Part shown: positions 1 to 21,145 of the stretch, in pieces | How the letters are laid out: the number at the start of each line of letters is the position of its first letter | How positions within the stretch are numbered: the stretch's first letter is position 1 | IMG/VR virus record: IMGVR_UViG_3300032156_000001 | Location: 124,001 to 188,000 of that record | Reading direction: 5' to 3' (one strand) | Source: a virus | DNA: 64,000 nt | Translations under genes and position numbers: made by a program | Notes under the pieces: generated by a model | The model's database searches: none | The model's input: the letters and a program-made list of their open reading frames with translations, nothing else | What the model was told of the DNA's origin: nothing

Positions 1-1
1 C

Positions 2-139
2 TTGGCCAGCACGGCGGACAACCGCAACGAGCCGCGGTCGTTCCGCACGAGACAGGACGCGCTGCGCGCCTACCGCCGCGGCGAGCTCGGGCTTGGCGAC
101 CGCGTGGCCACGCTGGACGAAGGGGAGAAGAAGAAATGA
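2..139 (+). CDS. RNA polymerase beta-prime, N-terminal half (3' end only)
   Basis: Only the last 45 codons lie in the window; the 5' end is outside. The tail contains FRTRQDALRAYRRGELGLGD, which resembles the stretch of bacterial RpoC after the catalytic NADFDGD loop, where a phrase of the type 'EALxAYxxGEVxLHAxIKV' occurs. The reading frame stops at TGA 137-139, overlapping the next start codon by 3 bases. The matching continuation of beta-prime starts at 4346, so this is read as the end of the N-terminal part of a split polymerase subunit. The catalytic Mg-binding loop itself must lie upstream and is not visible. The identification rests on a short match plus context. Confidence 0.65.
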   Translation: MASTADNRNEPRSFRTRQDALRAYRRGELGLGDRVATLDEGEKKK

Positions 140-1029
140 GCCAGGATCTTGCTACCTTGAAGCTCGTCATGGAGACCGTGGCGGAGGTCCAGCGGCGCTG
201 GGAGAAGCGGGGCTTCGTCCCGCTCGATTCCTCCGGCATGATGGTGCAGCCGCAGCAGCAGATGGATCCCTCGATGGGCGGGATGCCCGGCGGGCAGCCG
301 CCGGGAGCTCCTCCGGGGCCCATGCCCCCCGGCGGCGCGCCCCCGCCCGGCGCGGGCGGAATGCCCCCGGGAGCGCCACCGGAAGCCGGTGGAATGCCGC
401 CGGAAGCCGGCGGCGCTGCTCCCGGTGGGGCTCCTCCCGGCCAGCCCGTCATGGTCAGCCTGAACGACCTGATCCAGCTGTTCCAGATGATCGTCCAGCA
501 GCTCGGCGGCGCGGCTGCCCCTGGCGGGGCGGCCGCCCCGGCGCAGGCCCCCGCGGAAGCGCCCAAGAAGGGCAAGGTCGCCGTGGAAGAACAGCTGGCG
601 CAACTGAACGCGAAGCTCGATCAGCTGCTCGGCGCGCTGGGCGGCGGCTCCGCTCCGGCTCCCGCTCCCACCGGGGGCCCTCCTGCTGCCGCCCCCGCCG
701 AGCCGACGCAGGCCGGCCCCGTCGCGCCCGCGGCGCCGATGCAGGTCCAGGCCAGCGCGATCGGCAAGCCGGAAGAGGACCCCGGCGAGCCGCCTTCGCT
801 GTCCGACCCGATCAAGACGGCCGAGATCCCGACGAGCGGCCCGGCGAACCCCGCGCTTGGCGCGGCGACCCCGGCCGCCGCAGTTCCTCCGCCGGCGCTT
901 CCCCCGCCGGCCTCGATGCAGCCGCCCACCGCTGTCGCCATGCAGCAGCCGGCAGGTGGGCTGGCGGGTGCCAAGGCGCAGTCGATGGCCAAGAGGATAA
1001 CCGAACTGAGAGGAGCGCCCAAGAAGTGA
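136..1029 (+). CDS. Pro/Gly/Ala-rich low-complexity protein between the beta-prime halves
   Basis: 297 aa, function not recognised. Residues 1-30 look helical and charged. Residues 40-105 are a Pro/Gly/Met-rich run of PPGAPP-like repeats. A helical hydrophobic patch follows (VSLNDLIQLFQMIVQQL), then a second helix (VEEQLAQLNAKLDQLLGAL), then more Pro/Ala-rich sequence, and a basic helical end (AKRITELRGAPKK). This is an intrinsically disordered protein with short amphipathic helices that could mediate oligomerisation. The start overlaps the preceding polymerase stop (ATGA) and the stop overlaps the next GTG start, so it is translationally coupled on both sides. It is not polymerase-like in sequence. 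Confidence 0.7.
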   Translation: MSQDLATLKLVMETVAEVQRRWEKRGFVPLDSSGMMVQPQQQMDPSMGGMPGGQPPGAPPGPMPPGGAPPPGAGGMPPGAPPEAGGMPPEAGGAAPGGAPPGQPVMVSLNDLIQLFQMIVQQLGGAAAPGGAAAPAQAPAEAPKKGKVAVEEQLAQLNAKLDQLLGALGGGSAPAPAPTGGPPAAAPAEPTQAGPVAPAAPMQVQASAIGKPEEDPGEPPSLSDPIKTAEIPTSGPANPALGAATPAAAVPPPALPPPASMQPPTAVAMQQPAGGLAGAKAQSMAKRITELRGAPKK

Positions 1030-1253
1030 AGGTGCGCGTGCAGTCAGGCGACATGAGCTCCGTGGAGTTGGAGGACGCCCGCAGCGCGGTGGTCATAGAC
1101 GACCACGGGCAGCCGATCGTGCTGGTGCAGTCGATGGCGCCTGGCCAAGTCCTGGTAGCGCGGGCGTCGGACCCGAACTTCAGGAAGCAGATCGAGGCGC
1201 TCGGCATAGGGTTGCGAGCCGATTTCGAGGTGCGAAAGGGCCATGCGAGCTGA
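1026..1253 (+). CDS. small unknown protein (75 aa)
   Basis: 75 aa starting at GTG 1026, which overlaps the previous stop as GTGA; GAGAGGAG sits about 10 bases upstream. The protein is a compact mix of beta-like strands (SAVVIDDHGQPIVLVQSM) and a short helix (RKQIEALGI). No family recognised. The same frame is open further upstream, but that part is Arg/Gly-rich and lies antiphase to the better-supported Pro-rich gene, so the short form is preferred. It overlaps the next start (1243) by 11 bases. Confidence 0.6.
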   Translation: MKVRVQSGDMSSVELEDARSAVVIDDHGQPIVLVQSMAPGQVLVARASDPNFRKQIEALGIGLRADFEVRKGHAS

Positions 1254-4200
1254 CTGGTTCACGGACGCCGTTTACGCCTCCGCGTTGCCGCCGGCTGTCA
1301 AGGAAGTGGCAGGGTGGGGCGGCGCCGGTCGGGCTTTCGGGGGGCGCACGTTCGCCGCCCCGGTCTTCGGGCGGCTCTTCGGACGGACGGCGGCGCCTGC
1401 GGCAGAACAGGCCGCTGCAGGCGCCGCTGCGCGCATCGTGCCGGTAGCAAAGGGGACCGCTGCGGCTGCCGGAACGGCCGCGCGGCCGGGCGCTTTGGCT
1501 GCACTCGGGCAACAGTTCCGGCCGGGCAACGTGGCGTCCCAGTTTTCCCGGCAGCTCGGCTTGGGCGGGTTGGGGACCGCCGCAAGAGGGGAACTGACGT
1601 CGCAATTGCGTTCCGGCGGGCGCATAGGGGAAGAACTGGTAAGGCAGTTCGGCCTTGGCAGCCCCGCGATGGCCGCGCTGGCGCCTGGCATAGCGACACG
1701 GCGCATGGCGGCGCAGCTGGCCCTTCGACCGCCGGTTCCCGCCTTGCAAGGCATCAAGTGGCAGGCGGGTGAAGCGGGTCCGCCCGGCTTGCGTTCCTTG
1801 GTGCCGTCGAGAATGCCGCACGAGCCGGGAGGGACAGTGGAACGCGCCGTCCCGGGGGAACAGTTGGGCGGCGTTCGCATCGGCGGGCGCACGCAGGCGT
1901 ACGCGGAGTCTCCCTCCGGGACCGCCACCGTGCTTCCCATCCTGTATCGGCCGCGGCCTGCGCCCGTACCGGCGCCGGCGGCGTCGATGACTACGCACGT
2001 CACGCCCGCGCAGGCGGCATCAGGCACGCCGGCAGCTGCGAAGACGCCCACGCCAGCGCAGGCCGCTTCGGGGACCATGACAACGTCGAGAAGCCGCGGC
2101 ATGAGCATGGCACCGGCGCAAGGCGAGCAGCCGGCCGCGCCCGGCCAGCCGCCGGCAGGGACCCCGTTGACGCAGGAAGCGTTCATGAAAGGCATCGAGT
2201 CGATACGGCCGGAGACGGGCTTCATGGCCGGCGTCAAGGGCATGCTTCCGTGGATGGCGCTAAGCTACGGACCGCAGATGCTCTCGGGTCTTTATCGCGG
2301 ATTCGTCAAGCCGGACGAGGAGGAAGGCCGCGCGCAGGAAGCGCAGGGCCCGCGCTATAGCCACGGCGTTTCGCCGTACGCTAGCCCAGTCGCCGAGTCG
2401 GAACGGTATCGGTACTGGCCGAAAGGCGCTGCGGACGTTTCCAAGGCCTTGGAAAAGTCGGCTAAGCGGACGTGGCGCTCGAAGTCCTTCCGCAAGTTCA
2501 CGCTGCTGCACAGGTTCCCCGGCAAGACGAGGATGTCGGCCATGCGCAGGAAGACCGTCGCGCGCAGCATGCCGTTCGCTGCCAAGTCGGCCTTCTACTG
2601 CGGCTTGGCGAAGCGTTGCGCCGAGCTCGGCCTTGACAGGGACGACGGCAGGGCCGTCGTGGAAGCCCTGCAGAAGCTGGCCTTCGACGGGGAAAATCCA
2701 CGGCCGGAAGAGGAGGAAATAGACCCGCTGTACACTTATGCCCCGGCGGTTGGCGCCGCCGGCGCGGGTCTTCTTGCTGGCGCCGGGACTGGCGGAGGTC
2801 TGCTGGCTTCCGGCGTGGGCGGCACAATGGTTGGCGGCATGGCGCTCTCTCCATTTGAAAGGTTCGCCGAGGGGGTGCGGAGGAGCCACGCGACTGAAGG
2901 TTGGGGAAAGAATTGGCCGCTGCTGTATTCGACCGGTCAGGGCTTCAAGAACATGGTGACCGGCGAATACGGATCCGATCCCTACGGGTCCGCCCCCGCT
3001 TCGGCGGGGAAGGCGGGAAAGGGCGGCGTCGGCACCGACCCGATGGCACTCGACAAGGCAATAGGCACGCTTAAAGATCCGGAAGTGTATAAGCGGATGA
3101 TTCGGGAGGAGAAAGAAAAGTTCGGGCCGATGAACGCGGAAAGATTGAAAGGTTTTCTCAATCTTGCGTATGAGCAAGCGCGAGTAGGCGGCGAGGTGTC
3201 CCCCGGCGAGGCCGCCGCGTCGGCCACCACGGGGATGATCCCCGGCATACGGGGGCTTGACCGCGCCCAAAAGAGCAAGATCCTTCGCAGGCTTCATCCC
3301 GAGTTGGACGCCGTGAAAACATTGCCGGCATTCCAGACGCCGGGGATCGGCGCGGCGCCCGGGGTAGGAACAGCGCCCGGAGTTAGCAGGCCGTCTGGCG
3401 CTGTCGGGCCGCAGGGCACAGCCGCTGCGCCCATGCCGGGTTCGCCGGCAGCTGCCCGAAGGCCCATGAGCGGCCAGAAGTCCACGCGCGACCAGGTCAG
3501 CCTGATAAGGCAGGAAGCAGCCACGCGGCAGGCGCCGGCCGCTCCGAAGGCCCCGGCGCCGACCGGCTCGCCCAGCGCCGCTGCGGCTCCGGCATCGACT
3601 GGTGCGGCACCGCGACCGTGGTCCGCCCGCGGCGGATTCGAGGGCGCTGAGGGGACCCGTTACGGCATGGCGCAGTCCGGCGGCGAATACGTGCCGCTCA
3701 GCGGCGGCGCCAACACGGAACCTGGCCAGACATACGGCGGCGCGGGGAGCTTCGACATAGACCGAAGGCGCGGCAGCATCGGACTGCCCGTGGCCGCGCG
3801 ACAAGCAATGCAATCGTTCCGTCAACCGCCCAGCGGCGCTTACGCTGCCCCGGAAGGAGCGGTCTACGGCCGCGGGTCCGCAATGGGCGGTCCCGAGCGG
3901 TTCTCGTTCGACCCGTCGGAACGGCTTGTGGGGACTGCGCTGTCAGCGCTGACGGGAGCGGGCGGCGGACAACCCGCCCCGGCGGCCCAGGGCGTGCCGG
4001 CGGTTGCCGCGCCGCCGGTGCCGTCGCGCATGGCGCGGAGGATCGAGGACGTCGGGGGCGGCGATGAACCGTCCGGTGCCTCGGCCAGGCTCCGGGCTGG
4101 CAGCGTCGCTACCTCGGTGCCGCAGGGGGCAGTGGCCCCGTCATTCGGCGACGTGGCGTCGTCCGTCGGCAAGCCGGGATTCAGTAAGCACATCACGGGT

Positions 4201-4341
4201 CAGGTGCAGCCGACGCCGTCCAGGCCGCTGCCGGGCGCGCCACAGCTGCCGCCGCCCAATCCGGGCGGCCTGGAAGCGATAAGAAGGAGCCGGGAGCTGT
4301 TGAGCGCCCCGATACCGCCCACGGGCTACGCGACTCGGTGA
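1243..4341 (+). CDS. large Ala/Pro/Gly-rich protein lying inside the split RNA polymerase locus
   Basis: 1032 aa, function not recognised. Long Pro/Ala-rich disordered regions (about 230-320 and 700-800) flank two Gly-rich hydrophobic segments: one near residues 326-353 (GVKGMLPWMALSYG) and one near 495-535 (VGAAGAGLLAGAGTGG), which look like glycine-zipper or membrane-active helices. A basic stretch around residues 405-450 is rich in Arg, Lys and Phe. The pattern (disorder, glycine zippers, basic patch) suits an internal virion, scaffold or membrane-penetrating protein, but that is inference. One copy of the 18-bp palindrome lies inside the gene and encodes VSKALE. The start overlaps the preceding gene and the stop is 4 bases before the polymerase gene. 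Confidence 0.65.
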   Translation: MRADWFTDAVYASALPPAVKEVAGWGGAGRAFGGRTFAAPVFGRLFGRTAAPAAEQAAAGAAARIVPVAKGTAAAAGTAARPGALAALGQQFRPGNVASQFSRQLGLGGLGTAARGELTSQLRSGGRIGEELVRQFGLGSPAMAALAPGIATRRMAAQLALRPPVPALQGIKWQAGEAGPPGLRSLVPSRMPHEPGGTVERAVPGEQLGGVRIGGRTQAYAESPSGTATVLPILYRPRPAPVPAPAASMTTHVTPAQAASGTPAAAKTPTPAQAASGTMTTSRSRGMSMAPAQGEQPAAPGQPPAGTPLTQEAFMKGIESIRPETGFMAGVKGMLPWMALSYGPQMLSGLYRGFVKPDEEEGRAQEAQGPRYSHGVSPYASPVAESERYRYWPKGAADVSKALEKSAKRTWRSKSFRKFTLLHRFPGKTRMSAMRRKTVARSMPFAAKSAFYCGLAKRCAELGLDRDDGRAVVEALQKLAFDGENPRPEEEEIDPLYTYAPAVGAAGAGLLAGAGTGGGLLASGVGGTMVGGMALSPFERFAEGVRRSHATEGWGKNWPLLYSTGQGFKNMVTGEYGSDPYGSAPASAGKAGKGGVGTDPMALDKAIGTLKDPEVYKRMIREEKEKFGPMNAERLKGFLNLAYEQARVGGEVSPGEAAASATTGMIPGIRGLDRAQKSKILRRLHPELDAVKTLPAFQTPGIGAAPGVGTAPGVSRPSGAVGPQGTAAAPMPGSPAAARRPMSGQKSTRDQVSLIRQEAATRQAPAAPKAPAPTGSPSAAAAPASTGAAPRPWSARGGFEGAEGTRYGMAQSGGEYVPLSGGANTEPGQTYGGAGSFDIDRRRGSIGLPVAARQAMQSFRQPPSGAYAAPEGAVYGRGSAMGGPERFSFDPSERLVGTALSALTGAGGGQPAPAAQGVPAVAAPPVPSRMARRIEDVGGGDEPSGASARLRAGSVATSVPQGAVAPSFGDVASSVGKPGFSKHITGQVQPTPSRPLPGAPQLPPPNPGGLEAIRRSRELLSAPIPPTGYATR
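2438..2455. repeat. 18-bp perfect palindrome, copy 1
   Basis: TTTCCAAGGCCTTGGAAA, identical to its own reverse complement. One of four exact copies in the window (others at 23785, 36885 and 57532). This copy is inside the 1032-aa gene and is read as VSKALEK. Confidence 0.85.
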
Positions 4342-4345
4342 CTGA

Positions 4346-6190
4346 ATGCTCACGACGGTCGGACAGCTTCTGGTCAACGAGGAGCTCCCCCCGGGGCTGC
4401 GCGACCATTCGCGCGTCCTCGACCAGGCCGGCGTGGCCAAGCTGTTCGGCGAGATAGAGAAGGCCGACAAGGGCAAGTTCGCCGACATCAACAGGCGGCT
4501 GCACGACATCGGCCAGCTGGTGTCCACCAGGCAGGGCCGCGAGACGAGCCTGTCGCTGGACGCCCTGCGCCCTTCCAAGGGCGTCGCCGACGAGCGCGCC
4601 AAGCTGGACCGCGAGGTGAAACTGATCCTGGCCGGCCCGGGCGACACGGCGGAGAAGCACAGGAAGATCGTCGAGGCCATCGCCGGCAAGGCCGACAGGA
4701 TCACCGAGCTGAACTACCAGGAAGGCCTGAAGGACCGCAACCCGTTCGCGCTGCAAATCCTGTCGGGCAGCCGCGGCAACAAGGTACAGTTCAGGACGCT
4801 GCGCGCGGGCGACCTGTTGGTAACCGATCACAGGGATGAGCCCGTGCCGGTGCCAATGCTGTCGTCCTACGCTGAGGGGCTCGACCCGGTGCAGTATTGG
4901 GCGGGAGCGTATGGCGCCCGCCGAAGCGAGATTTTGAAAAAGTTCTCCACCCCGAAGGCCGGCTACCTCGGCAAGCAGCTCGCCATGGCGGCGCACAGGC
5001 TCGTCGTGACGGAGAAGGACTGCGGCACTTCCACCGGCGTGCCGGCGACGGCCGACGATCCCGACAACGAGGGTGCCGTCCTGGCAACCGACGCGGCCGG
5101 CATCCGGGCCGGGACGGTGCTGACGCCGGACATCATGCGGAAGCTGGGGGACAAGAAGATCCTCGTCAGGTCGGCGCTGACCTGCCAGGCGGAGCGCGGC
5201 CTGTGCGGCAAGTGCGCTGGCGTACGCGAGACAGGCGCGCTGCCGTCGATCGGCTCGCATATCGGCATCGCGGCGGCGCACGCGCTTTCAGAGCCGTTGT
5301 CACAGGGGTCTCTGGGCGCGAAACATTTGGGCGGGACCGTCTCCTCCGGCCAGAGATCGAAGGACGACGCGCTCGACGTGGTCAACAGGCTGGTCCAAGT
5401 GCCGGAGGCGTTCCCCGGCGCGGCGGCGGTCGCTACCAACGACGGCCGCGTGGAGCGCGTCGAGGATGCGCCGCAGGGCGGCACGACGGTCGTCATAGGC
5501 GGCAAGGAGCACTGGGCGGCGCCGGGCCAGAAGATCATGGTGAAGAAGAACGACGAAGTCGAAGCTGGCGACGTCATCAGCGACGGCATGCCTAATCCCG
5601 CCGACATCGTGAAGCACAAGGGCATCGGCGAGGGCAGGCGCTACTTCACGGACCTGTTCAGGAAGACGCTGGCGCAGCACGGATTCAAGCAGAACAGGCG
5701 GAACGTGGAGCTGGTGGCCCGCGGCCTGATCAACCACGTGCGCATCACGGGGCTGCACGGGCCGAACCACACCGTCATGGACGACCTGGTGGAGTTCGAC
5801 CCGCTCATGCGCGGCTACGAGCCCAGGGAGGGCAGCGTTTCCGTCACGCCGAAGGAAGCCAGGGGTTTCTTTCTGGAAAGGCCCGTGCTACATTACTCGG
5901 TGGGCACGCGGATCACGCCGCGGATGGCGGCGGAGCTGCACGGGAACGGCGTCAAGAGCGTCACGGCGCACCGTGAGCCGCCGCCGTTCGAGCCGGAGAT
6001 GGTGCGGGCGGTCGAAACGATGGCGCACGCGGACGACTGGATGCTGCGGCTGGGAGGCCTGTACGGCATCCAGCGCAGCTTCTTGAAGTCCGTCCACCGC
6101 GGCGGCACCTCCGATCCGACGGGGACGTCCTACATCCCGGCGCTGGCGGAGGGCACCGGCCTGCGGGGGTTGGAAGACGAGGAGGATTAG
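4346..6190 (+). CDS. rpoC: RNA polymerase beta-prime subunit, C-terminal half (bridge helix, zinc site, trigger loop)
   Basis: 614 aa. The N-terminus (TTVGQLLVNEELPPGL) aligns with the TTVGRAILWxIVPxGLP region of bacterial RpoC, exactly where the upstream fragment at 139 leaves off. Residues 182-216 match the bridge helix (YGARRSEILKKF, GYLGKQLAMAA). The second zinc site is complete: C226 in VVTEKDCGTSTG, and C280, C287, C290 in CQAERGLCGKC. Residues 303-331 match the trigger-helix region (IGIAAAHALSEPLSQ, HLGG). Compared with E. coli (numbers from memory), the trigger-loop His936 is kept but Arg933 is replaced by Gly. Later, EAGDVISDGMPNPADIV matches the ERGDVISDGPEAPHDIL segment. It probably assembles with the N-terminal half and phage beta-like subunits. 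No strong ribosome site precedes ATG 4346. Confidence 0.93.
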   Translation: MLTTVGQLLVNEELPPGLRDHSRVLDQAGVAKLFGEIEKADKGKFADINRRLHDIGQLVSTRQGRETSLSLDALRPSKGVADERAKLDREVKLILAGPGDTAEKHRKIVEAIAGKADRITELNYQEGLKDRNPFALQILSGSRGNKVQFRTLRAGDLLVTDHRDEPVPVPMLSSYAEGLDPVQYWAGAYGARRSEILKKFSTPKAGYLGKQLAMAAHRLVVTEKDCGTSTGVPATADDPDNEGAVLATDAAGIRAGTVLTPDIMRKLGDKKILVRSALTCQAERGLCGKCAGVRETGALPSIGSHIGIAAAHALSEPLSQGSLGAKHLGGTVSSGQRSKDDALDVVNRLVQVPEAFPGAAAVATNDGRVERVEDAPQGGTTVVIGGKEHWAAPGQKIMVKKNDEVEAGDVISDGMPNPADIVKHKGIGEGRRYFTDLFRKTLAQHGFKQNRRNVELVARGLINHVRITGLHGPNHTVMDDLVEFDPLMRGYEPREGSVSVTPKEARGFFLERPVLHYSVGTRITPRMAAELHGNGVKSVTAHREPPPFEPEMVRAVETMAHADDWMLRLGGLYGIQRSFLKSVHRGGTSDPTGTSYIPALAEGTGLRGLEDEED

Positions 6191-6192
6191 TA

Positions 6193-6828
6193 ATGCGTTC
6201 CGAACGGGCGTTCGCGTACCGGCTTGGCCGCAAGATCGGCGAGTTGGCGAAGGAAGCGGCGGGGCCGGGCCTGCCTTCCAGCGCCACGGCCCGGCAAAGG
6301 GCGGCTTCCGCCGGTGGCGGCGGCCTGCTCGGCGCCGTCGGCGGCGCGGGCATGGGCCTGGCCGGCCTGTTCAGCCCCCGTGCGGAGAAGCGCATCACGG
6401 AGTGGGGCGGCCAAGGCAGGACCGGTCGGATAGGACAGGCGATGGCGGCCCGCCGCCTCGGCAAGTACATGCTCGGCGTGCCGGCCGCCGCGATGGTCCT
6501 GCCGGAACTGTACACGCACGCGTTCGGCTCGCAGGGCCTCATTCATAAGCTGTTGGGTCAGGCCACCACCGATCCGCGGCTGGCGGTGCCGGATCCCTAT
6601 GGCGGCATCGACATGTCGCGGATGGGCGGATTCGGCCCCAGCTACATGCAGGCCTGGAACGCCTACGCCAAGGCGCAGGCGGAGCGCAGGAAGCAGATGT
6701 GGGAGCTCGGCCAGGCGGACCGCGTCGCGGCCGGCCTGCCGCCCATCCCGTACGAGGCCGGCTACGCCGGGCTCGGGCCCTCGGCCGGCGGCATGGGCTA
6801 CGCGCCGTCGGCGTCGTACTGGCGGTAG
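6193..6828 (+). CDS. Gly/Ala-rich protein with hydrophobic segments, unknown
   Basis: 211 aa, starting 2 bases after the beta-prime stop, so co-translated with it. A basic N-terminus (AYRLGRKIGELAKEA) is followed by a Gly-rich hydrophobic segment (residues about 38-60, GGGLLGAVGGAGMGLAGLF), a basic loop, a second hydrophobic stretch (about 93-110, YMLGVPAAAMVLPELY) and a Gly/Tyr-rich tail ending YWR. Two possible membrane or glycine-zipper segments are visible. It resembles in style the proteins at 12411 and 1243. No family recognised; possibly a minor virion protein. Confidence 0.65.
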   Translation: MRSERAFAYRLGRKIGELAKEAAGPGLPSSATARQRAASAGGGGLLGAVGGAGMGLAGLFSPRAEKRITEWGGQGRTGRIGQAMAARRLGKYMLGVPAAAMVLPELYTHAFGSQGLIHKLLGQATTDPRLAVPDPYGGIDMSRMGGFGPSYMQAWNAYAKAQAERRKQMWELGQADRVAAGLPPIPYEAGYAGLGPSAGGMGYAPSASYWR

Positions 6829-6865
6829 GGCTGTCGGCCGTTTCACGTTTGCGAGGAGCTGAGCC

Positions 6866-9379
6866 ATGCCTGTGCCGCAGTCGACGGAGACGAACTTCGA
6901 GCGGGCGTTCTCCGACCTCGCCTTCGCGCGCCTGCGCGACAAGGCGCCCGCCCTGCTCGACCATCTCGTCGGCTTCCAGCTGATCGACAAGAACGACGAG
7001 GACACGCACGCCGTCGGCGTGTTCGGCTTCAAGCTCGGCCGGGAGTGGATCTTCGCCCCCGTGTTCTTCATCAACGGCGAGCTGAAGGGCCACGAGCTCC
7101 TGTACCTCAAGGACCGCGACGCGTTCGTGCCGATGACGGAGGCCTGGGTCAACTACCTGCTCAACAGGAAGCCGCGGATCCTCGGCGAGGCCGAGCAGAT
7201 CCCCAGGGACCAGATCGGGCTCAGGCAGCCCGACTTCAACATCTTCACCCGCTCCCCGCTCACCGGCGCCAAGTACGCCTCAGCGCGGCTCACCATCAAC
7301 GAGGTCATCAGGCGGGCGAAGCCGGAGTTCGCCGCGTTCATCGACTCGGCGTTCCGCGTCGGGCCGAAGCACGCGAAGTATGCGTCGGTTGACAAGACCA
7401 CCAGCCTGCCGATCGCGCTGCGCATCCTGGGCAAGCAGGCGCAGCGGAACCTCGAGATGACCATGCGGGCCGACCCGGCCTTCGCCGACGCGGTCTGCAA
7501 GTTCTACGACTGGCAGGAGCTCACCGGGGCCAAGGAAGCCAAGACGAAGCTGACCCGCGAGGAAGCCCGGTACATGGCGTCCGCCGCGGCCAACAAGTGC
7601 AAGGACTGCGACCACCACGACGCCCCCAAGTGCGCCATAGTGGAAGGCGAGGTGGCCGGCAGCGGCGGCTGCGCGCACTTCAAGATGAACACGGTCCGCA
7701 ACAGGATCGAGCCGGTCTCGGACAACCTGGCCCTGCCGCTCGCGGGCGCGAAGTCCGCCGTGGCGCTGGACCAGGCCGTGCAGAAGATGCGCGGCAAGAA
7801 GAAGAGCACGCTGCCGCGGCAGGTCGTGGTCATCCGCGACGACGACAACTCCAGCACGCTGTACCAGCTAACGGCGCAGGAGAAGGAGCAGCTGGCCCAG
7901 CACAAGTACGTCGTCCACAGGGTCGTGGAGGACCCGCGCAAGGGCGAGACGGGCACCAAGGTGTTCCGCTCGCAACTGCAGCTGACCCTTCAGGTCCCCA
8001 CGAAGACGGGCTTCTACGACATCATGATGGCCGACGGCAGCGCGCGGAAGCTGCTCGTCCTGTGCGACCAGTTGCTGGTCGGCTGGAACGCCAAGAAGGA
8101 CCCGCCGTCCGTCACCGTCATAGACACGGAGAAGAAGCAGTTCGGCGTCTACTCGCCGCACGAGATCCTGACCTCCAAGTGGTACGGCGACGACGAGCTG
8201 AAGGACTGGGCGAACAAGCTGCCCGACGCCGGCGAGCTGACGCCAGGCGCCTGCGCGATCCTCATCTCGCCCGCCGGCTCGGCCACCAACGTCTTCGAGG
8301 TCAACCGCAAGGACACGACCGCCGACGGCTTGGCCACCCTGTCCGTGAGCAGCTACTGGGACGCCTCCAAGGACTCGATGCTCAGCGACAAGCGCACGTT
8401 CCTGTCGAAGAGCCGCGAATACGCGTCCGACGACGTGGAGTCGATCACCCTCAGCGGCAAGGAAGGCGACAAGCCGGTGGTGCTGCACCGCAGCGCGTTC
8501 GTCCCCAAGGAGCTGAAGGCGTTCGTGCTTCACCGCAGGTCGCAAGCCCGACACGAGGCCCCGGCGACGCCCGACTCGTACGGGCCGTCCAGCATGGGTC
8601 CCGGCTCCCTGTCCAACACGCTGCTGAAGGCGGCGCTGGACAAGGAGATCCACAAGGTCCAGGTCACCACCGACGGCATCGGCTACGTGGCCATCGAGGA
8701 CGGCAAGCAGGGCCCGTACCTCGGCAAGATCGCCATGCTGAAGCACCTCATCGAGGACCACGGCGCCGGCGAGCAGGATGCGCTCGCCATGCTGAAGGCG
8801 GCGTCGGGGGCCGACAGGGCCCCGGTCTTCCTGGTCAAGCACGGCGACTACTACGACGGCGCGTACTCCGCGATGCCGATGACGCCGTACTTCCCCGACC
8901 AGATGGTCGGCCAGGAGGACGGGATCAAGGCGCCGGTGACGTACGACCAGACCGACGTGCTGCCGCTGACGAACATCGACAACTCCACGTCCAGGTCGGC
9001 GTACATGGACGACAGGTACGTCGACGACCAGGCCAAGCGGTTCGCCACCTACGCCGCCAATCAGGGGCAAAAGGAGGTCCTGGACACGGCGGTCATCGGC
9101 GGGCTGGTCAAGACGATGGACTCCGACGCGCTGACCGACAGCTACATGAGCGACCTGCTGCTGGCGCTGGACCGGCTCGGCCGCATCCTGTTCATGTACT
9201 ACTGGCACAACGACAAGTTCCGCGAGCGGTACGGCCAGCAGGACATGATCGAGCTCGAGGACAGCCTGCGGAACGTCTTCAAGCAGCTGGGCGAGCTGAC
9301 GCTGTTCCTGAAGCAGAAGACGATAGAGCCGGAGGCGCCGGGCTCCGAGATCGAGCTGCCCAACGCCGTTCCCTCGTAG
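6866..9379 (+). CDS. large 837-aa phage protein with a Cys cluster, probably virion-associated
   Basis: Well-formed globular protein of normal composition, preceded by GAGGAGCTGAGCC before ATG 6866. Residues about 245-272 hold CKDCDHHDAPKC followed by VEGEVAGSGGCAHF. This C-x2-C-x7-C...C spacing looks like small metal or iron-sulfur binding segments seen in some phage head proteins. Two YD-type repeats near residues 660-700 (FLVKHGDYYDGAYS) and an acidic helical C-terminus follow. I do not recognise the family and cannot assign it as portal, although a portal-sized gene would be expected near this position. It is followed after 8 bases by the next gene. Confidence 0.7.
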   Translation: MPVPQSTETNFERAFSDLAFARLRDKAPALLDHLVGFQLIDKNDEDTHAVGVFGFKLGREWIFAPVFFINGELKGHELLYLKDRDAFVPMTEAWVNYLLNRKPRILGEAEQIPRDQIGLRQPDFNIFTRSPLTGAKYASARLTINEVIRRAKPEFAAFIDSAFRVGPKHAKYASVDKTTSLPIALRILGKQAQRNLEMTMRADPAFADAVCKFYDWQELTGAKEAKTKLTREEARYMASAAANKCKDCDHHDAPKCAIVEGEVAGSGGCAHFKMNTVRNRIEPVSDNLALPLAGAKSAVALDQAVQKMRGKKKSTLPRQVVVIRDDDNSSTLYQLTAQEKEQLAQHKYVVHRVVEDPRKGETGTKVFRSQLQLTLQVPTKTGFYDIMMADGSARKLLVLCDQLLVGWNAKKDPPSVTVIDTEKKQFGVYSPHEILTSKWYGDDELKDWANKLPDAGELTPGACAILISPAGSATNVFEVNRKDTTADGLATLSVSSYWDASKDSMLSDKRTFLSKSREYASDDVESITLSGKEGDKPVVLHRSAFVPKELKAFVLHRRSQARHEAPATPDSYGPSSMGPGSLSNTLLKAALDKEIHKVQVTTDGIGYVAIEDGKQGPYLGKIAMLKHLIEDHGAGEQDALAMLKAASGADRAPVFLVKHGDYYDGAYSAMPMTPYFPDQMVGQEDGIKAPVTYDQTDVLPLTNIDNSTSRSAYMDDRYVDDQAKRFATYAANQGQKEVLDTAVIGGLVKTMDSDALTDSYMSDLLLALDRLGRILFMYYWHNDKFRERYGQQDMIELEDSLRNVFKQLGELTLFLKQKTIEPEAPGSEIELPNAVPS

Positions 9380-9387
9380 GGGCGACA

Positions 9388-10212
9388 ATGGCGTCCGAGC
9401 CCGACACCCTCAACGCGCCGGACTGGCGCTGGTCGATCGCCGGTGAGATGGTGCGCCGCAGCGATCCCCCCGACCGCGGTTCCGACAGGCTGCTGATCCA
9501 GGCATACCGCTTCCTGGTGCGGTTCAAGGATCCGGCGGCGACGGCGCGGTTGCGCCTGCGGAAGGACTACCCGGAGATATACGCCGCGCACGCGCTGTAC
9601 CGCGACCCCCTCAGCGAGCGCTGGCTCATCGAGGCCGGCCTGCTGTCCGACGTGCCGTTCCAGGAGCTCGCCGAGTACGTGGCGCAGACGGCCAGGACCG
9701 TGGAGACGTACGGGGCCCTCTTCTTCGACGTGAAGGAGAAGATGAAGTCGCGCGGCTGGGTCATGACGCGCATCCTGATGCCGCCGCGGATGGCCAGCCA
9801 GCCGACGGACCTGGACTTCCTGCTGAAGGCGGTAGCCTACTTCGCCGGCTGGGGCGTCCTGCGCGAGTACCTGGAGGCCAAGCGGCTGAGCCCCGGCGCG
9901 CGCACGTACCTGACGGAGGACTACCGCGACCAGGTGTTGCGCCGCAGCTGGGAGGCGGCCCACAGGGTCGAGATCAACAAGTTCAACGTCGTCGAGGTCA
10001 TGGAGATGCAGCTAAAGGCCATGGCGCTGGACCTGCAGCGCGGGGCCGTTTCGGAGCCCGAATTGGTCATCCGGTTGAACGCCGTGTTCGGCGGCTGTAG
10101 AATAGGCGTCGCGGCCCCGGTGCCGATGATAGACGAGCTTGGGCCGAAGGCGCTGGCGCTCCCGGTGCCCATCCGGGACGAGGAGAAAGCGGGAGATGGA
10201 AAAGCTCAGTGA
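9388..10212 (+). CDS. conserved-looking 274-aa protein, unknown
   Basis: ATG 9388 is preceded by GTAGGGGCGACA. Mostly helical and charged, Arg-rich in the first half (FLVRFKDPAATARLRLRKDYPE) and ending in a Pro/Val-rich tail. No catalytic motif, Cys cluster or transmembrane segment is visible. It overlaps the next gene by 17 bases (start at 10196), so the two are translationally coupled. The position ahead of the prohead protease suggests a head-assembly or packaging role, but this is context only. Confidence 0.65.
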   Translation: MASEPDTLNAPDWRWSIAGEMVRRSDPPDRGSDRLLIQAYRFLVRFKDPAATARLRLRKDYPEIYAAHALYRDPLSERWLIEAGLLSDVPFQELAEYVAQTARTVETYGALFFDVKEKMKSRGWVMTRILMPPRMASQPTDLDFLLKAVAYFAGWGVLREYLEAKRLSPGARTYLTEDYRDQVLRRSWEAAHRVEINKFNVVEVMEMQLKAMALDLQRGAVSEPELVIRLNAVFGGCRIGVAAPVPMIDELGPKALALPVPIRDEEKAGDGKAQ

Positions 10213-11485
10213 GGCCGACGAGCGGCGCATCCTGGCCGCCATGGAGCGGGTCATCGACGCCACCAACGGCGGCGCCGACCCCAGCGCCGCGATAGCCAAG
10301 GTGGCCGCCGACGAGAAGTTCGCCCCGCCGGTGGTGCAGCGGATGGTCGAGGCGTACAACGTGTCCAAGACCAACGCCTACATGAAGGAGGCCAGCGGCG
10401 AGGCCAGGGCCGCCTCCTTCCCGATAGCCGACGCGGCCAAGGTGCTGGGGGAGATGTACCCCGCCGTTCCTAAGGCCGCCCGCGCGCGGGAGCTGGAGGA
10501 GACGGAGGCCATCGCGGCCTTCTTCGCGCCGAAGGGCGAGTCCGTGGACTTCTTCAAGATCGCCGACGACGGCGGCATCGCGGGACAGGCGGGCGGCAGC
10601 GCCGAGGGCGGGCTGGTCACTTCCGACCCTGAGAGGGCGGCGGCGCACCCGTTCGACCCCGCCGAGGCGCAGGCGAAGAAGATCAGGAAGCACAGGAAGC
10701 TGGAGAAGGACGCCGACGACGCGCGCGTGAAGTACGCGGGCGCCTTCTCCGACTGGTTCGGGAAGATGGCCGAGGCCGTGGAATACTTCAAGCGGCCCGA
10801 CCACATCTCGTTCGCCGAGGTGGAGAACCGCATCAGCTCCAACTTCGGCGCCCTCGGCAAGGCGGCCATGGACGCGATACACGTCCTGGCCGGCGGGCTG
10901 GCGAAGCGGGCAGAGGCGGCGCCGTACCCGCTGATGGTGGACATCGCCAAGGCGCCGTACAGGTCGATCGTCGAGGCCATGAGCGCCGCGAACGAGGTGG
11001 TCAAGTACGCCAGCGACGCCGCCGCGGCGGCCGTCGCGCTGGAGCAGTACGACCGCGAGAACGGCCTCACGCTGGTAAAGCCGGCGGCAGGCATCCTGGT
11101 CAGCACCAAGGACTTCATGGAGGCGCTCGGTGTAGGCTCGGACCCTACGGCAACCCGGGCCAGGACCGCAGCGGAGGTCATGGCGCCGGGGCATGAGACG
11201 CAGATGCGGGCCGTGAAGGTCCAGGCGATGATCAACGACCTGGTCTCCAACGATCCCGTCCTGTCCGCGCACGACCCGAACGACGTGGCCGACGCGTACA
11301 ACCAGATCGCGCAGCTGGTGCCGCACGTGGCCAGCCAGCCGGTGCTGATGCGCGGCCTGCTGCGGCGCGTGGTCCAGCAGGGCGGCGTGGTCGAGCCGCA
11401 CGAGCTGAAGCAGGTGTCCGACCTGGAGAAGCAGAAGGAGCCCGCCCCGCTGCCGTTGGGCGAGCCGGCCAAGCCGAGGGCCTGA
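10196..11485 (+). CDS. helical 429-aa protein, unknown
   Basis: The start ATG 10196 is chosen because GAGGAGAAAGCGGGAG lies directly upstream and the sequence MEKLSEADERRILAAMERV is a plausible N-terminus. The same frame is open 57 bases further upstream, but inside the preceding gene. The protein is almost entirely alpha-helical and Ala/Lys/Glu-rich with coiled-coil-like stretches (KIRKHRKLEKDADDARVKYA). No enzymatic motif seen. It is compatible with a structural or scaffold-like head protein; no family assigned. Confidence 0.6.
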   Translation: MEKLSEADERRILAAMERVIDATNGGADPSAAIAKVAADEKFAPPVVQRMVEAYNVSKTNAYMKEASGEARAASFPIADAAKVLGEMYPAVPKAARARELEETEAIAAFFAPKGESVDFFKIADDGGIAGQAGGSAEGGLVTSDPERAAAHPFDPAEAQAKKIRKHRKLEKDADDARVKYAGAFSDWFGKMAEAVEYFKRPDHISFAEVENRISSNFGALGKAAMDAIHVLAGGLAKRAEAAPYPLMVDIAKAPYRSIVEAMSAANEVVKYASDAAAAAVALEQYDRENGLTLVKPAAGILVSTKDFMEALGVGSDPTATRARTAAEVMAPGHETQMRAVKVQAMINDLVSNDPVLSAHDPNDVADAYNQIAQLVPHVASQPVLMRGLLRRVVQQGGVVEPHELKQVSDLEKQKEPAPLPLGEPAKPRA

Positions 11486-11490
11486 TTCCG

Positions 11491-12411
11491 GTGGATTTCT
11501 GCGAGTCATTGGCCAGGACGTGCATTGCGGCGCGGCAGAAGCGCGCCGAGGATCCGGATCCCGCGTCGTTGCGCTCCGAGTTCGAGCGCCTGTCGGCGCG
11601 CGAGCGCGTCCTGCGCGAGTCGGCGTCGGGCATGCAGGAGGAGGCCAAGCGCACGGCCGCCCGGCAGCGCGTGTCCGGCTCCGGCCCGATGGCCACGTTC
11701 CTGAAGCGCCTGTTCGTCCCGATTCCCCTCGGCGCCGGCGAGACCGCGCTGCGGGCCGGCGGGGCCGGCCTGGGCGGGTACTATGGGCACCGCGCCGCCA
11801 AGCCCGGCCTGACGCCGAAGGAGCTGGGCATGGTCATGCTGCCGCCCGAGCGCGGCGGCGGGCCGGCCGGGCCGATAGGCGCCGCTGAACACCTGGAGAA
11901 CATCCTTAGGCCGATATACCAGCAGGCGCAGCTGCCCGCTGGCGTGGAAGGGCCCGCACGTATGCCGTTGATCGACGTGACGAAGCTGCTGGCGGGCAGC
12001 CCGGAGAAGGACGTTCTGGCGGCCCTGGGCAAGCGCCCGCTCGGCTGGGTGCCCGGCATGGGCCTGTCGGAAAGCCAGCAGAAGATCCGGGAGGCCGTGA
12101 CGGGCGCGTTCGGGCAGGGCGGGCCCGGCCAGGTCATCGGAAGGCTGGGTTCTGCGGCGGAACGGCTGAAGTCGAAGCAGCCCGCCGCGATGCCGAGGAC
12201 CTCGTCGAGGCAGATGCTGGGGACGGTCCTTGGCGCGTACCTGGGTTCCGTGGCGGGCGGGCTGCCGTCCGCGCTGCGCGCCGCGTGGAAGGCCAGGAGC
12301 GGCGGCGAGGCTTCCGCCAATCTGGCCGCCAAGGCGCAGGCCGCGTTGCGGGAGGCCGACGAGGCCGCCGCGTCGCGCGACAGGCTGCTCACGATGCTGG
12401 GAGCCAAGTAA
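11491..12411 (+). CDS. 306-aa protein with a Gly-rich hydrophobic segment, unknown
   Basis: Begins at GTG 11491, five bases after the preceding stop, with CCGAGGGCC upstream. The N-terminal 70 residues are a charged helix (FERLSARERVLRES). A hydrophobic Gly-rich piece follows (residues about 84-100, GAGETALRAGGAGLGGYYG), then a Pro-rich loop, and a C-terminal region with a second Gly-rich segment (GTVLGAYLGSVAGGLPSAL) and a helical end. It shares this organisation with its downstream neighbour. The stop overlaps the next ATG by one base. Confidence 0.6.
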   Translation: MDFCESLARTCIAARQKRAEDPDPASLRSEFERLSARERVLRESASGMQEEAKRTAARQRVSGSGPMATFLKRLFVPIPLGAGETALRAGGAGLGGYYGHRAAKPGLTPKELGMVMLPPERGGGPAGPIGAAEHLENILRPIYQQAQLPAGVEGPARMPLIDVTKLLAGSPEKDVLAALGKRPLGWVPGMGLSESQQKIREAVTGAFGQGGPGQVIGRLGSAAERLKSKQPAAMPRTSSRQMLGTVLGAYLGSVAGGLPSALRAAWKARSGGEASANLAAKAQAALREADEAAASRDRLLTMLGAK

Positions 12412-13175
12412 TGATCAAGCCGGCGGCGGTGCTGCCATCGTTCCTGTCGCAGACGCTGGGCCACGCCGCGCTGGGCGGGCTGGCCGCCGGCGCGTTGAGC
12501 AGCCACGACCGGCTGGTCGCGGTGCTGCGCGGCGCGCTGACGGGCGCCGGCGGCGGGTTCCTGGGATCGGCGGCGGGGCTGGTCCCACTGGGCGCGGGCA
12601 GGCTCGCGACCGGCACCGTGGCGGAGCACATACCGTACATGCAGGCCGGCGGCCTGATAGGAAGCGTGGCCGGCGGCGCGTACGGCCGGTCGCGCAAGCC
12701 CGAGGAGGCCGCGGAGGAGAAGAAGGCCGGGATCGCTCCCGTGGCATTGGGTTTGGGCCTGGGCGGCATCCTTGGCGGGACGGCCGGTTACAGGGCGACC
12801 GGGCAGGATACCTGGAACCGTTTGACGCCGAAGCAGAAACTGGCGGTGATCCTGCGCAGCAGCCTTCTCGGTGCCGCCGGCGCCGGCGCCTTGGGAGTCG
12901 CCGGCGCCGGCGCCGGCGGCCGAATAGGAACTTACAGGCTGCGCGGCGCGCTCGACACGCGCGTGAAGGAGCTGGAGAAGGCGCTCGACACGGGCGGGCC
13001 GCTGCCGCCCAAGCCCGATGTAAGGGCGTTGGCCGGCCTGGTGCGCACCCCCGCGTTGATGGGAATGGCCGCCGGCGGGCTAACTGGAGGCGTCCTGGGC
13101 GGTCTGTTCGGCAGGGCGGGCGGCAAGGCGCGCGGCGGCAGGCGGCGCGCGATGGAGCAGGACGAAGATGTATAA
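12411..13175 (+). CDS. glycine-zipper multi-segment hydrophobic protein
   Basis: 254 aa starting at ATG 12411, which shares one base with the previous stop. At least five Gly/Ala-rich hydrophobic segments are visible: about residues 17-30, 42-62, 78-92, 106-124 and 150-172, plus one near 213-235 (MGMAAGGLTGGVLGGLFG). Charged loops such as RSRKPEEAAEEKKAG separate them. The GxxxG patterns are typical of glycine-zipper proteins that pack in or disrupt membranes. No family assigned. It overlaps the protease gene by 8 bases, so it is made together with the head genes. Confidence 0.65.
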   Translation: MIKPAAVLPSFLSQTLGHAALGGLAAGALSSHDRLVAVLRGALTGAGGGFLGSAAGLVPLGAGRLATGTVAEHIPYMQAGGLIGSVAGGAYGRSRKPEEAAEEKKAGIAPVALGLGLGGILGGTAGYRATGQDTWNRLTPKQKLAVILRSSLLGAAGAGALGVAGAGAGGRIGTYRLRGALDTRVKELEKALDTGGPLPPKPDVRALAGLVRTPALMGMAAGGLTGGVLGGLFGRAGGKARGGRRRAMEQDEDV

Positions 13176-14646
13176 GGTCATCCCGCACGGCTCGTTCGAT
13201 TTCGGCATGCCGGCCGCCCGGCTGGTGGACCTGCACCGCGGCGGCGTGGACTCGGCGTGGCTGGAGAAGCGCGCGGCCGTCCTGACGCGGGAGATCGCCG
13301 AGCTGAGGCCGCGGCCGGGGCACAGCTACGTCCACCTGATCTCGCTGGGCTCCATGGAGCACTACGGCTGCAACAGGAACGGCGACGCGTTCCCGTACAA
13401 GAGCGCTACGTACGAGCTGCCCATGCCGAAGGGCGGTCAGAAGCTCATCAAGCTCGCCGACGGCCTGTCCAGGATGCACGCGACCTTCATGCAGGGGCAC
13501 GTCTTCAAGCATCACCAGAACGACAACCCCGAGAAGTCGATCGGCAAGATCGCCGCCGAGGCGTACAACCCCGAGATGCACCGCGGCGAGCTGATCATCG
13601 AGGTGCCGCACGGGAAGGAGTGGGACGACGACCTGCAGAAACTGGCGAGCGGCCAGGACATCGCCTTCTCGATGAGTATGCGCGAGCCGCACGACACGTG
13701 CAGCGCATGCGGCAACCAGGCGACGTCGCGGGCGAGGTACTGCGACCACCTGCGCGACCACATGACGGAGATACTCAAGAGCGGCCACCAAGTGTTCGCC
13801 ATCAACGACGTAGGCTCTTTTTTCGATATCAGCAAGGTGATGCGCCCCGCCGACAGGATCGCGTTCTCGCTGAGGAAGGTTGCCGAGCTGCTCGCGGTGG
13901 GCGGGGCCGCCCTTGCCGAGGAGCTCGGGATGATCGACGCCGCGGGCTCGCCCCGCAGCGTCCCAGCCGCAATGTCGCGGAAGGTCGCGGCGGCCGAAAA
14001 GCTGTCCGCGATGGAGAAGCGGGTCGGTGCCGCCGCGCGCGGAGAGGACAACACGGAGCTGTTGCAGCAGGCGCGCGGTTGCCCGTCGCGGGAGCTCAAC
14101 GACGACGAGATTTCCGGGCTGAAGAGCGCGCGGCTCGGCCCGGTGCTCGGCGCGTTGGCCGACGCGAAGATCTGCCTCTCGGTCCGCGATTTCGCGCGGC
14201 TGGTGCAGGGGCCGAGTCGCGGCCCCTCGGACGGCGACATCGGCTTGGTCGAGCGGATGCTGCCGGACCTGCATTCCCGCCTGTCCGACGGGGATGCGCA
14301 AAGCTGCGCCGCTGACGGGTCGTACGACTCCGACGAGGGGTCGGCCGGTCCTCTCGGCGCCTCGATTCCGCGGCACGTGCGCGACTTGATCGGCCGGCTG
14401 ATGGACGACCATTCGTTGGCCGAGGGCCCGGTCCGGCGGAGGATCACGATCGTCACGATCCGCGGCCTGAAGCCGGAGACGGCCCAGCCGGAAAAGTCGA
14501 AGGTTGCCGTGGACTCGACTTCGGCATATACTCTCGCTCGGGAGTATGCGAAGTACCGGCTCGCCTTTCTGGCCAAGCAGGGAGCCGACGCTGAGCGATG
14601 TGCCTTGTTGACAGTCCTGCGCGGCTGCGTTAGATTCGTGCCGTGA
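13168..14646 (+). CDS. prohead (capsid maturation) protease, predicted
   Basis: 492 aa. The N-terminal half resembles phage head maturation proteases: GCNRNGDAFPY (about 67-77), a conserved His in MHATFMQGHVFKHH (about 103-116), strands such as GELIIEVPHG, and a Ser-rich strand DIAFSMSM (about 164-171). These are followed by a putative metal site CSACG...YCDH (C178, C181, C192, H194), a signature I associate with large-phage prohead proteases. The C-terminal half is Ala/Asp-rich and variable. It would cleave scaffold and capsid proteins in the prohead. Position supports this: probable scaffold, decoration proteins and major capsid follow. A promoter lies in its last 40 bases. The exact catalytic residues are not certain from sequence alone. 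Confidence 0.75.
   Translation: MYKVIPHGSFDFGMPAARLVDLHRGGVDSAWLEKRAAVLTREIAELRPRPGHSYVHLISLGSMEHYGCNRNGDAFPYKSATYELPMPKGGQKLIKLADGLSRMHATFMQGHVFKHHQNDNPEKSIGKIAAEAYNPEMHRGELIIEVPHGKEWDDDLQKLASGQDIAFSMSMREPHDTCSACGNQATSRARYCDHLRDHMTEILKSGHQVFAINDVGSFFDISKVMRPADRIAFSLRKVAELLAVGGAALAEELGMIDAAGSPRSVPAAMSRKVAAAEKLSAMEKRVGAAARGEDNTELLQQARGCPSRELNDDEISGLKSARLGPVLGALADAKICLSVRDFARLVQGPSRGPSDGDIGLVERMLPDLHSRLSDGDAQSCAADGSYDSDEGSAGPLGASIPRHVRDLIGRLMDDHSLAEGPVRRRITIVTIRGLKPETAQPEKSKVAVDSTSAYTLAREYAKYRLAFLAKQGADAERCALLTVLRGCVRFVP
14608..14636 (+). promoter_or_regulatory. sigma70-type promoter before the scaffold/capsid block
   Basis: TTGACA at 14608-14613, a 17-base spacer, and TAGATT at 14631-14636. 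It lies within the end of the protease gene and about 50 bases before the scaffold start. The -35 is a perfect consensus match and the -10 matches four of six. It would allow capsid genes to be transcribed more strongly than the protease. Confidence 0.6.
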
Positions 14647-17732: not shown

Positions 17733-17801
17733 GAAACTGGCGCCGGTCCAGCCACCAAGGGCGGCCCGGCTTGGGAAGGCTTGGAAGAGAGGGTCACTGA
17801 G

Positions 17802-18731
17802 ATGGAACCGACCACGGAACTGCTGAATCGGGCCGTCATAGACCGGCTCACCTCGGACGATCCCGGGATGGTGAAGGAAGCCGTCACGGCGATCAACGAG
17901 TACACGCGGGTGAAGCTGCGCGAAGACGGCTTCCTGAGGCGGGTGCTCCCGCCCCTGACGATCACGGAGTTCGACCGGCAGGTCGACACCGACAAGCCGG
18001 TCAAGGTCGTGGACAAGGAACCGGACTCCCCGGCCGCGATCAGCGTGCCGTTCGGCTCCTCGCCCATGAACCGGTACATCCGCGGGCCCCGCTACCGCGT
18101 GATGTTCGACCGGATCCTCACGCCGAAGTTCACCAAGGACGTCGTCGAGCTGATGACCTGGCACATGGACATCCGCCAGATCCTCAGCGACAACGCCATC
18201 AAGGACATGATGGCCGAGGAGGACAACAAGTTCCTCCTGGCGGTCAACACCGTCCTGGTGGCCCCCGGCAGCGTCCTGCCCGACACGGGCATCGCGCAGT
18301 GGGTCACGCTCAGCGGCGGAGTGACCAGGGACACGCTGGCTGCGGCCATGCAGGTCCTCCCGGGCAGCTTCCAGCGCTTGGTCGCGGCCACGGTGCTGGT
18401 CAACCAGATCACCATCTGGGAGTTCGTGAAGTGGGGCCGCGACGAGGTCGGCGGCGACGACGCGCAGGCCACGCTGCGCCAGGGCTTCCAGGAACGCGAG
18501 CTCATGGGGGTCCGCTTCATCGTCACGATCAAGTGGGACCTGGTCCCGACGAACACGATCTTCCTGTTCGCCGAGCCGAAGTTCCTCGGCAAGCTGTACA
18601 TGATCGAGGACGTCACGATGTACGTGAACAAGCGGGCGTTCATGCTCGAGTTCTTCGCGTACGAGTGCCTCGGCGGGGCGATCGGGAACGTGGCCGCGGT
18701 CGGCCGCGTGGACTTCACGACCGAGACGTAG
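17802..18731 (+). CDS. major capsid protein, predicted
   Basis: 309 aa. ATG 17802 is preferred over an in-frame TTG 21 bases upstream because AGAGAGGG lies 9 bases before it. Order of elements: helical N-arm (residues 1-45), strand-rich E-loop-like region (RRVLPPLTITEFDRQV), long central helix (FTKDVVELMTWHMDIRQIL), and a beta-rich P/A-domain-like end (GVRFIVTIKWDLVPTNTIFLF and KLYMIEDVTMYV). Size, order of strands and position after protease, scaffold and decoration genes fit an HK97-fold capsid protein of the long-helix type seen in myoviruses. A strong GC hairpin follows the stop codon. Confidence 0.75.
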   Translation: MEPTTELLNRAVIDRLTSDDPGMVKEAVTAINEYTRVKLREDGFLRRVLPPLTITEFDRQVDTDKPVKVVDKEPDSPAAISVPFGSSPMNRYIRGPRYRVMFDRILTPKFTKDVVELMTWHMDIRQILSDNAIKDMMAEEDNKFLLAVNTVLVAPGSVLPDTGIAQWVTLSGGVTRDTLAAAMQVLPGSFQRLVAATVLVNQITIWEFVKWGRDEVGGDDAQATLRQGFQERELMGVRFIVTIKWDLVPTNTIFLFAEPKFLGKLYMIEDVTMYVNKRAFMLEFFAYECLGGAIGNVAAVGRVDFTTET

Positions 18732-19741: not shown

Positions 19742-20017
19742 ATGCGCACATTGGTCTTCAACAACCTGTACCGCTCCCAGTTCTTCGGGTACATCCCGCC
19801 GCACGGGGCGGCCATTCCCGGCCGGCGCTCGGTGCTCGTGGACGGCGACCTCCGGTCCGTGCTGGCCAGCGGGCGCGCCAGGTACTCGCGGAAGCGCGAG
19901 ATCGCGGCGCTGAACCACGACCAGGACGCCTGCATCGTCACGCTGAGCGAGGTGCCGGAGCCGAGCTGCTCGTCCAGCTCCAGCTCGATGTCCAGCTCCA
20001 GCTCGCCGGCGATGTAG
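19742..20017 (+). CDS. minimal GYxPPHG-module protein
   Basis: 91 aa: a single copy of the module shared with the proteins at 20057, 21146 and 37627 (FFGYIPPHGAA, VDGDLRSVLASGRARYSRKR), followed by a Ser-rich tail (SCSSSSSSMSSSSSPAM). ATG 19742 is preceded by TAGGAGGAACGGA. It lacks any additional domain, so it probably represents the bare anchoring module. Role unknown; the location suggests head decoration or fibre base. Confidence 0.6.
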   Translation: MRTLVFNNLYRSQFFGYIPPHGAAIPGRRSVLVDGDLRSVLASGRARYSRKREIAALNHDQDACIVTLSEVPEPSCSSSSSSMSSSSSPAM

Positions 20018-20056
20018 CCGAAATACGTCGGGGGTTGCGGCCAGGAGGACCTACCG

Positions 20057-21127: not shown

Positions 21128-21145
21128 GACGACCCGGGAGACTGC

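Follow-up and report, generated by a model that had tools for sequence, protein, structure and literature searches.

The DNA examined here is a window of 64,000 nucleotides, positions 124,001-188,000 of the 188,118-bp IMG/VR virus record IMGVR_UViG_3300032156_000001, analyzed together with the upstream DNA of that record. It encodes a phage RNA polymerase (RNAP) in which the beta and beta' subunits are both fused and split: one chain carries beta followed by the catalytic N-terminal half of beta' (beta-beta'N), and a second chain, encoded 4.2 kb downstream, carries the C-terminal half (beta'C) with the bridge helix and trigger loop. We favor, with a probability of roughly 0.75, a two-chain bacterial-type phage polymerase descended from a single-chain ancestor that was cut once, packaged in the virion and probably used for early transcription.

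The fused gene enters the window only with its last 45 residues and stop codon (2..139, + strand), with a start codon 6,236 bases ahead of the first window position. The complete open reading frame (ORF, genome 117765-124139) encodes 2,124 residues matching Pfam Rpb2_6 (E 9.5e-48), Rpb1_1 (3.9e-10) and Rpb1_2 (5.6e-24), and alignment to relatives identifies it as the entire beta subunit plus the N-terminal half of beta', through the catalytic loop GADFDGD. Its tail aligns with the beta'N region of ~100 relatives and ends where beta'C begins. A preliminary description, made from the letters of the window alone, had proposed from the tail of this gene that beta' is divided between two genes 4.2 kb apart; the RpoC similarity of the first gene, the division and all coordinates hold, and the upstream gene does not contain the C-terminal domains whose presence would have spoken against a split. 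The same description expected NADFDGD and a beta subunit further upstream: a whole beta is indeed there, but fused, and the loop reads GADFDGD.

Two insertions enlarge the fused protein. The segment at residues 703-1053 (351 aa; L012:3871-4923 in our locus numbering, L012 being the present locus) is intein-like, judging from the motifs it contains, from other members that lack it and from similar segments that recur elsewhere in these genes; it has no Pfam match. Intein-like segments occur at several sites in the RNAP genes of 28 of 159 loci. Within beta, a 331-aa insert (residues 227-557; genome 118,443-119,435; L012:2443-3435) matches the 2H-phosphoesterases (2H-SAK), with E 3.6e-7 when searched alone and two H-x-S/T motifs. 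Homologous inserts were found only in the same RNAP ORF of locus L093 and in a separate ORF of L103. During infection, a polymerase bearing such a domain could act on signals or on the ends of RNA.

The second gene (4346..6190, + strand) encodes the bridge helix, a trigger loop whose Gln and His are conserved, and Zn-type cysteines. Its assignment as the continuation of beta', also made in the preliminary description, is borne out by Pfam Rpb1_5 (4e-18), by a phmmer match to solved bacterial beta' (5e-36) and by a Foldseek match of its AlphaFold model (predicted local distance difference test, pLDDT, 85) to Thermus beta' (E 1e-28). Structurally, the model places a 35-residue helix (residues 181-215) at the bridge-helix position, and all 25 sequences compared have the trigger-loop residues Gln320 and His327.

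This arrangement is widespread. A first protein search returned one related locus, a profile built from four beta'C sequences returned 68, and the best 80 matches to a beta'N profile were added, with more below these; all loci, from IMG/VR and from cultured phages, were scored with domain profiles, and the counts refer to loci rather than to independent phages. At least 102 loci encode beta'N and beta'C in separate ORFs, 101 of the 102 having beta'N in one ORF with beta or its C-terminal part, and beta'C lies 0.6-8.4 kb from beta-beta'N (median 1.6 kb). At least 30 further loci have an unbroken beta' joined to beta; 29 of the 30 encode one chain of ~1,900-2,500 aa (L148, among these, runs off its contig), the exception being L080. 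Dereplication at 95% identity leaves 83 + 1 split and 28 joined loci. Variants of the layout also occur: L068 has an extra break within beta'N (L068:8807-9985), so that three pieces whose ends overlap stand in tandem, only 3 bp before beta'C; L080 shows the reverse arrangement, a separate ORF for the N-terminal part of beta and a beta C-terminal part fused to a complete beta' (L080:5071-11440); and in L106 the order is inverted, beta'C preceding the beta-beta'N gene (L106:2416-11470). The Vibrio phages D181, D148 and D69 share the fused-then-split enzyme, with a 0.6-kb gap (detail from D181 only), their RNAP genes being annotated as hypothetical proteins. The beta part of D181 is interrupted by a group I intron (L015:9011-9291; Rfam RF00028, E 1.4e-26) with a homing endonuclease. 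In one further locus (L169:7286-13057) the RNAP frame is broken by three TGA codons only, a pattern suggesting that TGA may be read as an amino acid in that phage or its host.

Comparison of the two forms locates the cut within a short linker. Single-chain enzymes join ..(T/S)DVV.V to (K)TTxGR through mostly 2-5 residues, whereas in split enzymes chain 1 ends after ..D.VEI and chain 2 begins M(L).TTxGQLL; in the present phage these ends read ..LDEGEKKK* and MLTTVGQ. Since the split chains stop and restart at the linker of the single-chain enzymes, no residues have been lost. In Salmonella beta' numbering the split falls between residues 550 and 572, and residue 12 of cyanobacterial rpoC2 aligns with residue 22 of beta'C, placing the two breaks within ~10 residues of each other. 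The position of the cut, which the preliminary description took to be undescribed, is already known, because a review reports the same site for the virion and non-virion RNAPs (vRNAP and nvRNAP) of phiKZ and for cyanobacterial RNAP (PMC7598289).

Phylogenetic analysis points to a single origin. In trees rooted on bacterial RNAPs, of which only three rows were included, all split enzymes group together as a clade, with SH-aLRT 98 in a quick 46-row tree and ultrafast bootstrap (UFBoot)/SH-aLRT 100/100 in a careful tree of 34 rows. Single-chain phages surround this clade, and one change of state is enough. Since beta' is intact in bacteria as well as in the single-chain phages, the split is most simply read as the derived state, and a fused polymerase cut once in its short linker would be the simplest account of these sequences. 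The preliminary description, whose observation was right but incomplete and whose interpretation is partly supported, did not include the joining of beta to beta'N, the existence of single-chain sister enzymes or the single origin of the cut.

Several hits filed as phage proved to be cellular. CAKLQF020000005 and AFYI01000006 are bacterial contigs in phage records and carry rplA-rplJ-rplL-rpoB-rpoC; on this gene order the hits labeled Acinetobacter MD-2021a and Salmonella AFYI contig were rejected as bacterial and used as outgroup, as was Staphylococcus SA 1306 Kay, which is unannotated and groups with the bacterial contigs in the tree. A scan of genome contigs returned, among its best 80 rows, bacterial contigs at 32-38% identity, the level that ordinary rpoC should give, a result that neither shows nor excludes cellular carriers of the phage-type enzyme.

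The 4.2 kb between the two RNAP genes hold three co-directional genes (+ strand) whose ends overlap or nearly touch, as the preliminary description had noted. Gene A (136..1029), a Pro/Gly/Ala-rich protein of 297 aa, overlaps the RNAP stop codon at ATGA; gene B (1026..1253), of 75 aa, starts with GTG in a GTGA overlap; and gene C (1243..4341), an Ala/Pro/Gly-rich protein of 1032 aa, overlaps B by 11 nt and is followed by a 4-nt gap to beta'C. None of the three has a Pfam match above the cut-off or a PHROG match. Pro-rich ORFs similar to A stand at the same place in 25 loci; this similarity is composition-biased and may be merely compositional, so it was not counted as homology. No homolog of C was found in the gaps of other loci. 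B lies within the gap in all 35 loci where it was found, often abutting beta'C; all belong to the subclade of the window, and no B homolog turned up in the remaining two split subclades. The gap genes differ among the three subclades, and of those present here only B is tightly linked to the gap, in this subclade alone. The B model (pLDDT 85) has five strands and one helix and no fold match in PDB or BFVD at E<=1e-3. Furthermore, Rfam gives no match in window positions 1-12000, and neither chain end contains intein sequence. From the subclade-specific genes, the lack of an intron match and these intein-free ends, the gap is most likely an ordinary part of the virion operon that holds lineage-specific genes, and these are best read as mostly neighboring virion genes rather than conserved subunits. 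The suggestion in the preliminary description that the three proteins may be polymerase partners does not extend to a conserved role, since gap genes vary by subclade and the L068 gap measures 3 bp.

Evidence on the role of the enzyme comes from a cultured relative, Salmonella phage Arash (OQ632216). Arash lies with the present phage in the split clade (100/100) and has the same layout, with gp206 (beta-beta'N; Pfam Rpb2_3, Rpb2_6, Rpb1_1 and Rpb1_2) and gp216 (beta'C) 4.8 kb apart and gp218 downstream, at ~27-31% identity. Its RNAP lacks the intein and the 2H insert, and its gap genes are unrelated to those here, several being on the opposite strand. The available text of the Arash paper names gp206 'beta' and gp216 'beta prime' and describes neither a fusion nor a split (PMC10585845). 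Mass spectrometry of purified Arash particles detected both chains, gp206 with 3516 spectra, the most of all virion proteins, and gp216 with 1210, the fifth most, alongside gp218 (1149), the sigma-like gp10 (467) and the gap protein gp213 (143) (PMC10585845, as available). These spectra of gp206, gp216 and gp10 are the ground on which we infer a packaged two-chain early RNAP; detection in virions refers to Arash, the present phage being known here from its genes. They also make a virion polymerase, already raised in the preliminary description, the likeliest role.

Under the favored account, a single-chain beta-beta' polymerase would have been cut a single time, in the linker that follows the catalytic double-psi barrel. 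This break lies in an operon of virion genes, and neighboring small genes would have filled it differently in each lineage. The two chains, beta with the catalytic half of beta' and the C-terminal half with bridge helix and trigger loop, would assemble post-translationally into a beta/beta' core without a phage alpha subunit. In this phage the enzyme would most likely be packaged and injected to transcribe early genes, probably together with a FliA-like sigma factor whose gene was found elsewhere in this genome.

Some observations weigh against this account. The Arash authors caution that abundant enzymes may be carry-over in purified particles (PMC10585845, available text). Gly replaces the first Asn of NADFDGD in the catalytic loop here; many relatives of the same clade carry NAD. 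The portal gene is ~50 kb from the RNAP genes, and only 20 of the 47 related records tested show sigma region 2. The caution about contaminating intracellular enzymes also favors an unpackaged polymerase comparable to the phiKZ nvRNAP, made after infection and transcribing middle or late genes, as do the origin of the virion data in Arash rather than in this phage and the presence of a single RNAP in the record, a count limited by the possible incompleteness of that record. We regard this alternative as unlikely, given that the homologous Arash pair ranks first and fifth among detected virion proteins and that the genes sit in a block of virion genes. It is similarly improbable that the gap proteins, chiefly B, are true RNAP subunits or assembly or ejection factors binding both chains: the constancy of B between the halves, its frequent contact with beta'C and the overlapping start and stop codons would fit, but the two other split subclades, where no B was found, have different gap genes, the gap of L068 is 3 bp long, and no RNAP subunit matches B significantly in fold. 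An extension of the favored account, in which the cut let a large enzyme enter and leave the virion as two chains, co-translated factors then settled in the gap and, in this subclade, B serves as a dedicated partner in assembly or ejection, is conceivable, if on the doubtful side.

Frequent inteins among the loci and the group I intron in D181 beta raise the question of whether the 4.2 kb could be a mobile intron, or whether a split intein could rejoin the halves so that mature beta' is one chain. This is very improbable: the lack of an Rfam match in window positions 1-12000 and the intein-free chain ends speak against either element, and the Arash products are separately annotated proteins with many peptides each (PMC10585845, as available). 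An assembly artifact or a decaying gene, which a metagenomic contig might suggest, deserves next to no credence and is refuted by independent genomes, the same arrangement recurring in ~100 contigs and in sequenced cultured phages with open frames and conserved active-site residues.

Among known systems, the phiKZ/AR9-type jumbo phages share several features with this enzyme. Their vRNAP and nvRNAP likewise have beta' split after the double-psi beta-barrel domain and lack an alpha subunit, and virion use of RNAP is a further likeness. In contrast to the single fused ORF here, their beta is itself split (4-5 chains in all); no bacterial sigma is found in them, whereas a FliA-like sigma is present here; and phiKZ-type phages have two polymerases, virion and non-virion, against one in this possibly incomplete record. 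Cyanobacterial rpoC1/rpoC2 break beta' at nearly the same site in a cellular enzyme, in which beta is not fused. The crAss-like phage RNAP unites beta and beta' in one chain, as in the single-chain sister phages, but keeps the C-terminal part of beta' with the catalytic part, which here is in a separate ORF. It is reportedly too divergent for COG0085/COG0086 (PMC7481178, available text), whereas the enzymes studied here match ordinary bacterial RNAP profiles. The mReC Caudovirales of the same paper (Weinheimer and Aylward 2020), likened here by their description, are metagenomic phages with bacterial-like beta and beta'; the available text describes them as encoding beta and beta' subunits and mentions fusion for crAssphage only. 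Recognition by cellular profiles, the mReC models being COG0085/COG0086, has its counterpart here in the Pfam matches, but the mReC filter asks for NADxDGD (PMC7481178, as available) and the sequence here is GADFDGD. The single-chain relative L152 comes from metagenome 3300017989, also the source of two mReC examples (PMC7481178, available text). In the open-access literature, as far as its texts were available and with most subscription papers outside this scope, no description was found of a fused-and-split RNAP or of profile-recognizable single-chain beta-beta' phage RNAPs.

In these phages the central transcription enzyme was first fused and then divided, with both forms surviving in a single viral lineage, and another example is added of beta' broken at the inter-domain linker used by cyanobacteria and phiKZ-like phages. 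The enzymes also link Arash, cultured and characterized by mass spectrometry, to a large uncultured group, which makes packaging, ejection and alpha-free assembly of a split RNAP testable on a laboratory-grown phage.

Genomic neighborhood analysis places both RNAP genes in an operon with virion genes. Two bases after beta'C lies a gene for a 211-aa protein (6193..6828, + strand), followed by an 837-aa homolog of the Arash virion protein gp218 (6866..9379, +; E 1e-107 for the hit in this genome). This family is conserved downstream of the RNAP genes, profile search finding it at 87 split and 8 single-chain loci and in Arash. Further downstream are a putative head maturation protease (13168..14646, +; phrog_18299, E 9.7e-4) and a putative major head protein (17781..18731, +; phrog_2522, E 1e-5); ten downstream proteins gave no Pfam matches. 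No alpha subunit was found in 48 records, in a search whose positive controls matched. Two further markers of the mReC phages were looked for: the terminase large subunit profile (TerL, PF03237) had no match in the 188-kb record, which may be incomplete, and the major capsid protein profile PF07068 had none in 47 related records, where controls also gave no match. Elsewhere in the window, a tandem pair at 16552 and 17118 shares DHEL..VKGWPGP, and paralogs at 19751-22153 and 37627-38550 share the start G(Y/F)(I/V)(P/G)PHG...DG(D/G)LR(T/S)VLA(S/G)G. Positions 54708-56330 match glycosyltransferase family 9 (heptosyltransferase; E 2.2e-7).

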